A stretch of DNA of 64,000 nucleotides from Lacibacter sp. H407 (lineage in GTDB: Bacteria; Bacteroidota; Bacteroidia; Chitinophagales; Chitinophagaceae): the NCBI RefSeq assembly GCF_037892605.1, contig NZ_JBBKTU010000001.1:4402001-4466000 (forward strand), written 5' to 3'. Made by a program: the position numbers and the translations under genes. Position 1 is the stretch's first letter, and every line of letters begins with the position of its first letter. Shown in pieces: positions 7,171-61,769 of the stretch. The notes below the pieces were generated by a model. It was not told the DNA's origin. It did not search any database and saw nothing but the letters and a program-made list of their open reading frames with translations.

Positions 7171-7177
7171 TAAAGTT

Positions 7178-7210
7178 GTCATCCCGAGGATACGAGGGAT
7201 CTGCCGGGAT
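7178..7210 (+). repeat. REP-like palindromic half-element (R1)
   Basis: Carries GTCATCCCGAGG and CGAGGGATCTGC, the same words as the facing pairs at 8367, 8537, 21258 and 21710. A degenerate facing arm (about 7230-7250) may remain. It directly follows structured element copy A. Confidence 0.7.
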
Positions 7211-8342: not shown

Positions 8343-8366
8343 TGTTGACATGACGTCCAATAGAAC

Positions 8367-8478
8367 GTCATCCCGACGCAGGAGGGATCTCTACTTACCC
8401 GGAAAGTAAGTATGTTATCAGCTTGATTATAATTTACTAGTCTTACTGCGTAGAGATGTCTCCTGCCGTCGACATGAC
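8367..8478. repeat. REP-like facing pair (R2)
   Basis: Left arm 8367-8392 (GTCATCCCGACGCAGGAG, then GGATCTCT) faces a right arm at 8452-8478 whose complement reads GTCATGTCGACGGCAGGAG, then ACATCTCT. The two arms could fold into a long imperfect hairpin with a loop of about 60 nt. Confidence 0.75.
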
Positions 8479-8536
8479 GGACTCCGCAGTTGTTACTTGT
8501 TTACCGATGCTGTACATTTTGCTGCTCACCAAAGTT

Positions 8537-8604
8537 GTCATCCCGAGGATACGAGGGATCTGCTGAGATAATGCCAGACAGATTTCTCCTAACGTCGAAA
8601 TGAC
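8537..8604. repeat. REP-like facing pair (R3)
   Basis: Left arm GTCATCCCGAGG...GGGATCTGC (8537-8563) faces a diverged right arm ending in GTCGAAATGAC (8580-8604). R2 and R3 lie in tandem and fill most of the 331-bp interval between the GH43 gene and the protease fusion gene; nothing else is seen there. Confidence 0.75.
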
Positions 8605-8673
8605 AAGAAGGATAAGCTACAGTACCTACACAATCATTCATCTTACGCAGGCTATTATCAGATGCATTGCCTT

Positions 8674-15909: not shown

Positions 15910-16306
15910 AATAAGACAACTTATCCACAAAAAAAAATATAGATGTTGAAACTCAATGTCACAAGTAATTCTAACGGTAAAATAAGAGGGAAAATTGAGG
16001 CAATAGTATAAAAAATTAGACGCCAAACAAATAACCAAGTACATCTATATTTCTCTTATCCCAACACCATAGCATATTTATTTTCAGGCGTTTATTGCCG
16101 CATAGAAATACTAACCGCACAAGAGTGCGACGCAACAACAGCTCAATAGCAGCACTTGCTTCTGCTACTAAATCATTTGTATTTGGATTTGGCAATGGAG
16201 TTTCGTCTTTGCAGCTTTATTGAGATGAGTGCATGTTCTCAACAGGTCCCTCCTGCGTCGGGATGACAGCTATGTTGGGCGGACTGCAATATTGAGCAGT
16301 TGAATA
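15910..16306. other. Interval upstream of the three-gene operon
   Basis: About 400 bp without a gene. It holds the distal half-site of the candidate operator, the word GCACAAGAGTGCGACGCAAC (16119-16138), and one REP-like half-element at 16246. The hutU stop lies at its right edge. No integrase, tRNA or attachment site is seen. Confidence 0.45.
16246..16267 (-). repeat. REP-like half-element (R5)
   Basis: GTCCCTCCTGCGTCGGGATGAC split here as GTCCCTCC and TGCGTCGGGATGAC: the right-facing arm of the palindromic family, without a partner arm nearby. It lies 40 bp after the hutU stop codon on the opposite reading side. Confidence 0.65.
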
Positions 16307-21226: not shown

Positions 21227-21257
21227 TGCGTATGGCTGTCATCAGCACAAGTGACCT

Positions 21258-21331
21258 GTCATCCCGAGGCACGAGGGATCTGCCCGGCAGTGGTACAACA
21301 GTTGAGCAGATTCCTCCTGCGTCGGAATGAC
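21258..21331. repeat. REP-like facing pair (R6), left of GIY-YIG gene
   Basis: Left arm GTCATCCCGAGG...GAGGGATCTG (21258-21282) faces right arm CAGATTCCTCC...GTCGGAATGAC (21307-21331) across a 24-nt loop. It ends 50 bp before the GIY-YIG start codon. Confidence 0.85.
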
Positions 21332-21381
21332 AAAAAATTTCATCTTTTGTATTATTTTAAACTACAGTAAACGCAACTGTA

Positions 21382-21696
21382 ATGAAACCTATCGGAACGC
21401 ACAACTACTTCGTGTACATTACCACTAATCAAAACAAAACGGTTCTTTACATTGGAGTAACCAATGATCTTTCTGCAAGACTCATCCAACATCAACAGAA
21501 CGCAGCGCCTTACACACATAATAGCTTCGCCGGAAAATACAATGCTTATTATTTGCTTTACTATGAACGCTTCGGTCAAATAGAACATGCTATCGAACGG
21601 GAGAAAGAGTTGAAAGGATGGCGGAGAAGCAAGAAAGAAGAACTGATCAATTCATTTAATCCTGAATGGAGATTTCTGAATGATGAAATTGAATAA
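21382..21696 (+). CDS. Single-domain GIY-YIG endonuclease
   Basis: The 104-residue protein consists almost entirely of one UvrC-type GIY-YIG domain: YFVYITTNQNKTVLYIGVTNDL is the GIY...YIG pair (here VYI and YIG), with Arg in SARLIQHQ, an AYYLLYYERF strand and Glu in AIEREKELKGWRRSKKEELI as the metal-binding residue. Such proteins cut DNA with one divalent metal ion; members of this stand-alone group are often labelled excinuclease ABC subunit C-like although they lack the rest of UvrC. The gene is bracketed by two facing pairs of palindromic repeats (ending 50 bp before it and starting 14 bp after it), making a 525-bp module that suggests a mobile or repeat-spreading role (inference). Confidence 0.92.
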   Translation: MKPIGTHNYFVYITTNQNKTVLYIGVTNDLSARLIQHQQNAAPYTHNSFAGKYNAYYLLYYERFGQIEHAIEREKELKGWRRSKKEELINSFNPEWRFLNDEIE

Positions 21697-21709
21697 CGCT
21701 AAACAGAGA

Positions 21710-21782
21710 GTAATCCCGACGCAGGAGGGATCTGTCGGGCTTTAGCACTTACTTCAGCAGATCCCTCGTACCTCGGGATGAC
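21710..21782. repeat. REP-like facing pair (R7), right of GIY-YIG gene
   Basis: Left arm GTAATCCCGACG...GAGGGATCTG (21710-21734) faces right arm CAGATCCCTCG...CTCGGGATGAC (21758-21782) across a 23-nt loop. It starts 14 bp after the GIY-YIG stop codon and has the same geometry as R6. Confidence 0.85.
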
Positions 21783-21886
21783 AAATAACTTCAACAAAAT
21801 TATCTGACAACAATCATCGCTTCTTTTGATGGCTGACATTGGGTTGTGAAAAAAGGGCTTCTACCTTCACTTTCAAATTACAACCT

Positions 21887-61663: not shown

Positions 61664-61674
61664 AATTCGAAGCC

Positions 61675-61751
61675 GTCATGTCGACGCAGGAGACATCTCT
61701 AAAATTGCAACCAGTTTGAGTTTTATGAGACCTCTCCTTCGTCGAGGTGAC
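61675..61751. repeat. REP-like facing pair (R8)
   Basis: Left arm GTCATGTCGACGCAGGAG, then ACATCTCT (61675-61700), facing right arm AGACCTCTCC...GTCGAGGTGAC (61728-61751). The left arm is closest to the right arm of R2 (shared GTCATGTCGACG and ACATCTCT). It fills the gap between ruvX and the prenyltransferase gene. Confidence 0.8.
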
Positions 61752-61769
61752 GTACTAAGTTTGTTTTCG

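Follow-up and report, generated by a model that had tools for sequence, protein, structure and literature searches.

A small GIY-YIG nuclease gene in the genome of Lacibacter sp. H407 (G000) stands alone between facing pairs of palindromic repeats, and the locus raises the question of whether the gene and its repeats together form a minimal mobile element, and what the nuclease would do in it. The window analyzed here is a stretch of 64,000 nt (G000 C1:4402001-4466000).

The cassette and the repeat arms of the window

The initial annotation had described a 104-residue GIY-YIG gene with a facing repeat pair on each side, 74 and 73 bp long with spacers of 24 and 23 nt. These coordinates proved to be exact: the open reading frame occupies 21382-21696 and its product matches PF01541 (E 3e-14), the left pair spans 21258-21331 (74 bp, arms 24 nt apart) and the right pair spans 21710-21782 (73 bp, arms 23 nt apart). 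The same repeats had been reported from at least five other intergenic places, and five further units were indeed found, in four intergenic regions of the window, with arms at 7178, 8367/8456, 8537/8582, 16243 and 61675/61730. The features are as follows (window positions).

7177..7203, + strand: single TGTC-type arm
8366..8479, no strand assigned: CGTC...CTC-type REP pair, the subfamily of the other nuclease clade, whose nuclease G000 lacks
8536..8605, no strand assigned: solo REPIN of the TGTC...CTG subfamily, the nuclease's own
16243..16267, - strand: single arm, remnant of a REPIN that is complete in the congener G120
21255..21783, + strand: whole mobile cassette, REPIN - GIY-YIG gene - REPIN, with its homolog at G119 C24:190259-190780 spanning precisely this interval
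21257..21282, + strand: left outer REP arm, TGTC-ATCCC-gaggcacga-GGGAT-CTG, tag outward
21307..21332, - strand: left inner REP arm, TGTC-ATTCC-gacgcagga-GGAAT-CTG
21382..21696, + strand: GIY-YIG nuclease gene, 104 aa (PF01541)
21709..21734, + strand: right inner REP arm with degenerate tag (AGTAATCCC...GGGATCTG), intact in G120 as TGTCATCCC
21758..21783, - strand: right outer REP arm, TGTC-ATCCC-gaggtacga-GGGAT-CTG, tag outward
61674..61752, no strand assigned: CGTC...CTC-type REPIN, common to G000 and G120 and absent from G128, G084 and G119

Two repeat subfamilies are thus present in the window, TGTC...CTG (the nuclease's own) and CGTC...CTC; neither this division nor the origin of the arm at 16243 from a decayed pair had been noticed in the initial annotation. 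The REPIN at 61675 was considered as an insertion private to G000, which was ruled out because G120 has it too.

Each arm was found to be a hairpin by itself with a covarying stem, a feature that the initial annotation had also missed. The layout consists of a [T/C]GTC tag, 5 bp starting with A-T, a loop of the form GA...GA and then CT; the window arms have 5-bp stems and loops of 9-10 nt. Six full-arm matches were found in the window, with 0.00 expected from dinucleotide shuffles, and the strict pattern GTCANNNNGASGNASGANNNNTCT gave 28 arms in the whole G000 genome (reversed control pattern, 0). In these 28 arms, all 112 unconstrained stem pairs were Watson-Crick and most positions had several types of pair; an extra closing pair was C-G in 15 and G-C in 13, never the mismatch that the pattern permitted. 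Nine of the 12 close pairs in G000 were tag-outward inverted pairs.

The central three loop bases read GNA in 28/28 G000 arms, where the pattern itself fixed G and A. At the homolog loci, where the loop was left unconstrained, 238 of 303 short-stem loops started with GA and ended with GA; among 102 GA...GA loops whose inner part was fully paired around three bases, 92 were GNA and none was TNC. Of 353 hairpins, 335 had a stem starting with AT (the scan itself demanded the A). Single-stranded DNA mini-hairpins with a GNA triloop are known to be exceptionally stable (Yoshizawa et al. 1997, as relayed in PMC11101458). Given this stability, the bias of GNA triloops to the tag strand points to a single-stranded DNA structure, on the basis of conservation and known DNA hairpin chemistry. 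Nearest-neighbour DNA folding of single arms showed no real strand asymmetry; the method does not model the GNA stability.

The nuclease has the GIY...YIG motif, the catalytic R and E and the fold of the GIY-YIG superfamily. Residues Y12, Y23, G25, R33, E74, K78 and N93 were invariant in both nuclease alignments. The AF2 model (pLDDT 89) was closest in fold to UPF0213 (1zg2) and then to Slx1; in the fold search only 1zg2 passed E 0.001, the Slx1 matches being weak by E-value and high in probability. UPF0213 (1zg2, 1ywl) and Slx1 were the closest relatives both by sequence profile and by fold, and to our knowledge neither is REP-bounded. Slx1 is a cellular branched-DNA nuclease and a partner of SLX4. 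The 104 residues contained no extra DNA-binding domain and no NUMOD.

Association of the nuclease with tagged hairpins and with their tag type

Homologs were collected from the same family, the same genus, named plasmids and chromids, and genomes of all phyla, and 126 distinct loci with adequate flanks were scored for a GTCA-tagged hairpin within 300 bp. Such a hairpin was found at 106 loci (∼84%) on any side and at 73 on both sides. Dinucleotide-shuffled flanks gave 2-6 (any side) and 0 (both sides), and windows 600-1200 bp away gave 17-21 and 0-3, respectively. When all 256 tetramers were used as the tag, GTCA scored best on both sides (73) and the runner-up reached 4. Clear cases came from Bacteroidota, Balneolota, Bacillota, Chloroflexota, Planctomycetota, Verrucomicrobiota, Acidobacteriota, Spirochaetota, Pseudomonadota and Cyanobacteriota. 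In these sequences, the nuclease family and the hairpins evidently go together across at least 10 bacterial phyla; coincidental pairing is ruled out by the shuffles, the offset windows and the all-tag scan, and the possibility raised by the initial annotation, that such paralogs generally lack flanking repeats, is contradicted by the 106 flanked loci. In multi-copy genomes, most paralogs lie within their own matching repeats.

At ∼16% of the relatives the strict scan found no such hairpin, including some copies in G311 and G264. In these two multi-copy genomes L207, L209, L210, L213, L214, L216 and L217 are without a REP hairpin and paralogs of the same genome have one; the hairpin-free copies possibly have another target or are decayed elements. 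The strict scan also misses true cases, namely Novosphingobium L077 and R. tumorigenes L083, which have CGTC/CCTC hairpins with stems or tags slightly off.

When loci of a different GIY-YIG family from the same genomes were scanned, none of 20 had a true REP hairpin, and the four scan matches were all tRNA T-arms, which rules out that any GIY-YIG gene has such repeats.

A second, distantly related GIY-YIG family was observed at G000 C1:3029623-3029874 (L002, L223) and at loci L224-L244. Of 22 loci of this family, at least 16 have the nuclease gene immediately 3' of a tRNA gene, the tRNAs including Val, Arg, Met, Ala and Lys. Some loci carry copies of the T-arm end of the tRNA on the other flank as well, and L241/L243 contain tRNA-nuclease units in tandem. 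This family looks like a separate mobile element targeting tRNA genes. Beside the tRNA-linked GIY-YIG gene of L234 (G056), ARAGORN called 'tRNA-Stop' (anticodon tta) at 1393-1466 and 2375-2449, either a mis-call or an unusual tRNA.

Some further arrangements were seen around the nuclease genes. Loci L036, L037, L038, L042, L045 and L218 carry long regular arrays of alternating hairpins around the nuclease, as if amplified locally in tandem, and L221 (1181-2151) has tandem nuclease copies beside a different repeated hairpin (CCGGATAA...TTATCCGG) with no GTC tag. On Planktothrix agardhii plasmid p1 (L081, 16841-21104), a REP-bounded nuclease has an MmeI-like restriction gene on one side and the DISARM gene drmA on the other, in a defence island.

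The base before GTC was T in 68, C in 37, A in 3 and G in 3 of 111 labelled loci, with CCTC at L083. On a tree of 131 nucleases the T/C state of the tag required 8 changes (shuffled mean 30.9; 0/500 shuffles as low), and within the window's own family 1 change over 34 loci (shuffled mean 11.3, minimum 6); the tree was built from few columns and has many unresolved forks, so that the exact change counts are soft. The idea that repeat subfamily tracks nuclease phylogeny was thereby borne out. In each of the genomes G119, G120, G125 and G126 the T-labelled nuclease has TGTC repeats and the C-labelled one has CGTC repeats, and since these genomes carry both kinds, host ancestry cannot explain the match between tag and clade. 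The tag-outward pairs of G000 were 5 TT and 4 CC, and T and C arms were never mixed. Repeat type evidently follows nuclease clade, also within genomes.

These results bear on the reading of the repeats as RNA elements, that is, terminators or hairpins that stabilise mRNA, which accumulate next to many genes and have only an incidental link with the nuclease. REPs are intergenic and can be transcribed (PMC3733652); the enrichment, however, marks this nuclease family specifically and drops within 600 bp, it is not seen beside the other GIY-YIG family, and the tag tracks the nuclease clade. A simple RNA role is disfavoured by the tag and strand bias, and we regard this reading as highly improbable.

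Filled, empty and collapsed sites

The window's site was compared among congeners. It holds REPIN-nuclease-REPIN in G000, G120 and G125, REPs without the nuclease in G084 and G119, a collapsed palindrome (GTCATCCCGAGGCACGAGGGATGAC) in G128, and nothing in G121, G122, G123, G126 and G127. The G119 cassette, with the same ends (21255-21783), lies ∼27 kb off and adjoins the ortholog of a window gene, at a place where G000 is repeat-free. In Azospirillum lipoferum 4B, a full REPIN-nuclease-REPIN unit separates sufB from sufC; in A. ramasamyi, A. oryzae and sp. B510 the spacer between the two genes is short and free of REPs, with flank identity of 94-97%. Filled, empty and collapsed alleles were found in Sphingobium, and filled and collapsed alleles in Sinorhizobium. 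Empty and filled sites in close relatives, the comparison suggested by the initial annotation, were thus available in several genera, and as far as sequence can tell REP(IN)-nuclease-REP(IN) is the unit of movement, or of gain and loss. No target-site duplication or insertion motif was clearly seen; the compared empty sites diverge beside the element ends.

In three unrelated lineages the collapsed allele has the form of a palindrome with two tags (GTC...GAC, or decayed from it); slippage between the end palindromes or cutting and rejoining would, either of them, yield it. Next to the nuclease of S. meliloti is a second unit, which consists of the left REP fused to the last ∼30 nuclease codons and the right REP, at 93-96% identity. 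Judged from this structure, it is an internal-deletion derivative and itself a REP pair. A search for copies of the derivative gave only partial repeats (S. medicae) and nuclease ends (Shinella, Neorhizobium).

The main rival reading of these alleles is that something else spreads the REPs and that the nuclease homes into existing REPs as its cut sites, like a free-standing homing endonuclease. GIY-YIG enzymes are the classic homing endonucleases, REPIN-only and REPIN-nuclease-REPIN alleles occur at one site as homing into a REPIN would give, and orphan REPs exist without the nuclease. A homing gene, however, splits the site it enters, whereas the hairpins on both sides of this nuclease are usually whole and in inverted orientation; the tags point outward in 38/78 innermost pairs and 17/27 single pairs. 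Moreover, close relatives have no REP at the place where the A. lipoferum cassette sits, the internally deleted element of S. meliloti is a REP pair, and no REP enzyme is known for the CGTC repeat class (PMC3733652). Weakened by the intact flanking hairpins, the gain at a REP-free site and the deletion derivative, homing is an unlikely account of the locus. The free-standing homing endonucleases of the I-TevI type share with the window nuclease the GIY-YIG catalytic domain and, on the preferred reading, selfish spread by DNA cutting; unlike them, the window nuclease has no NUMOD domain and lies not in introns or split sites but between intact hairpins.

The abundance of the repeats was then set against the presence of the nuclease, with the strict pattern, which covers one loop class, and with p values uncorrected for phylogeny. 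Among 119 family genomes the nuclease was present in 10 of the 11 with at least 10 strict arms vs 29 of the 108 others (p 5e-5). In the rest of the phylum sample it was present in 4/4 genomes at ≥10 arms (84/210 overall; p 0.02) and in 6/6 at ≥9 arms (p 0.004). Abundance of the repeats in genomes with no such nuclease, the other outcome that had been thought to speak against the proposal, was therefore largely not what was found, although some genomes keep orphan repeats. TGTC arms are kept in G084 and G128, where the TGTC-type nuclease is gone; G000 has 15 CGTC-type arms and no CGTC-type nuclease; and G069, G310 and G326 have 6-12 repeats each with no nuclease detected. The genome of L036 has 8 arms of that locus's subfamily, 6 of them next to the nuclease; the congener lacking the nuclease has 3 decayed ones and 117 other genomes have none, a count that is supportive but small.

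The nuclease itself is patchy (39/119 family genomes; 86/218 in the phylum sample), reaches 9 paralogs per genome, and some copies are broken by in-frame stops. This distribution bears on a host-side role, in which a domesticated repair or housekeeping enzyme would clear replication-blocking REP hairpins and be kept near repeats for regulation. The nearest structural relatives do include Slx1, a nuclease of branched DNA, and domestication has been argued for RAYTs (PMC8266576); patchy presence, movement, multi-copy paralogs and broken copies, however, look selfish rather than housekeeping, and such a role seems very unlikely.

Relation to known repeats and a candidate mechanism

The CGTC-REP superfamily was defined by Di Nocera et al. 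2013 (PMC3733652), with CGTC-to-TGTC changes, AT-starting stems and four families, and no tyrosine or other transposase, and no dedicated one, was linked to it. The likeness to the present repeats extends to an unpaired CGTC/TGTC/CCTC tag at one palindrome end, a stem starting with AT, a predominance of inverted dimers, a C-starting tail (CCA in Proteobacteria) and the same genera, including Neisseria, Azospirillum, Sinorhizobium and Novosphingobium. CGTC-REPs flank nuclease homologs in Azospirillum, Sinorhizobium, Neisseria, Aeromonas, Sphingobium, Rhizobium and Novosphingobium; the flanks in N. gonorrhoeae (CGTC-ATTCCCGC-gcag-GCGGGAAT) and A. lipoferum (CGTC-ATCCCCGC-gaag-GCGGGGAT-CCA) are textbook CGTC repeats. 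The 8-9 bp stem and 4-5 nt loop of the CGTC-REPs are found at the homolog loci of Azospirillum, Neisseria, Rhizobium, Sphingobium and Aeromonas but not in the window arms. By these shared features the window's repeats belong with the CGTC-REPs, the Bacteroidota form with its 5-bp stem and GA...GA loop lying outside the four described families. Where the survey found no enzyme, here a GIY-YIG gene stands between the repeats.

The parallel to RAYT-mobilised REPs drawn by the initial annotation, with a GIY-YIG enzyme instead, is supported by a REP-bordered gene whose repeats are also dispersed genome-wide. Like the REPtron/RAYT system (TnpA_REP; PMC2817692, PMC3116915, PMC8266576), the element has one small gene with short tagged palindromes at its borders, inverted pairs of ∼70-75 bp and singlets across the genome, and repeat-enzyme co-evolution, and for both trans-mobilised derivatives are proposed. 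In contrast to that system, the enzyme is a GIY-YIG hydrolase and not an HUH/Y1 tyrosine transposase, the tag is [T/C]GTC and not GTAG, and the GIY-YIG cassette is itself gained at new sites; the architecture is that of a REPtron with a non-homologous enzyme. With MITEs the repeats share the form of short inverted-repeat derivatives without a gene, including one internally deleted copy (S. meliloti), but the element ends are tagged hairpins, no clear target-site duplication was seen, and the parent encodes a nuclease and not a DDE transposase. No report linking GIY-YIG enzymes to REPs was found in the open full-text literature or in the checked papers citing the CGTC survey.

Mobility and cognate pairing are well supported by the comparisons above. 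The whole suggests, with a probability that we put at roughly 0.7, a minimal mobile element in which one small GIY-YIG gene lies between inverted REP hairpins with the tag outward, the nuclease acting on its own terminal hairpins and the REPs being its non-autonomous derivatives. We somewhat favour the broader proposal that this GIY-YIG family is the missing mobiliser of the CGTC/TGTC REP superfamily in at least 10 phyla, and that it moves by structure-specific hairpin cutting and host repair, without strand transfer of the transposase type. We infer that the nuclease may cleave the hairpins and may drive the spread of REPs in trans.

In such a mechanism, the tag strand of unwound DNA would fold as a single-stranded hairpin or cruciform, with a stem of 5-9 bp and, in many loci, a cap formed of tandem G.A mismatches plus a GNA triloop. 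Its cognate nuclease, related to the structure-selective Slx1/UPF0213 fold, would recognise tag and hairpin and nick or cut at the element edge. GIY-YIG enzymes hydrolyse DNA with no covalent protein-DNA intermediate, so the joining to a new site would have to be made by host repair or replication, through template switching, end joining or gene conversion between REPs. REPs and REPINs would be non-autonomous, MITE-like derivatives served in trans, which would decay or persist as orphans once the nuclease is lost.

The need for a joining activity could also be met by hitch-hiking, in which an unlinked transposase (e.g. IS200/RAYT-like) recognises the REPs and moves the cassette with the nuclease as cargo. 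GIY-YIG chemistry gives no strand transfer, so that another activity must join the DNA, and RAYTs are thought to move non-autonomous REPs in trans in other systems (PMC3116915, PMC8266576). However, no tyrosine or other transposase was found linked to the CGTC repeats by Di Nocera et al. (PMC3733652), and cargo is not expected to co-evolve so tightly with the repeat tags; the chances of hitch-hiking appear slim.

On the preferred reading of a nuclease-driven element, the system is minimal, with ∼530 bp and one 104-aa enzyme, and it is an endonuclease, not a transposase, that seems to maintain both itself and a repeat population throughout the genome. This would assign a function to the very common small ORFs annotated as 'GIY-YIG nuclease family' or 'excinuclease', and it predicts a structure-specific, tag-reading DNA nuclease that is potentially engineerable. 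If the mechanism is as proposed, the cassette would represent a new class of mobile element.
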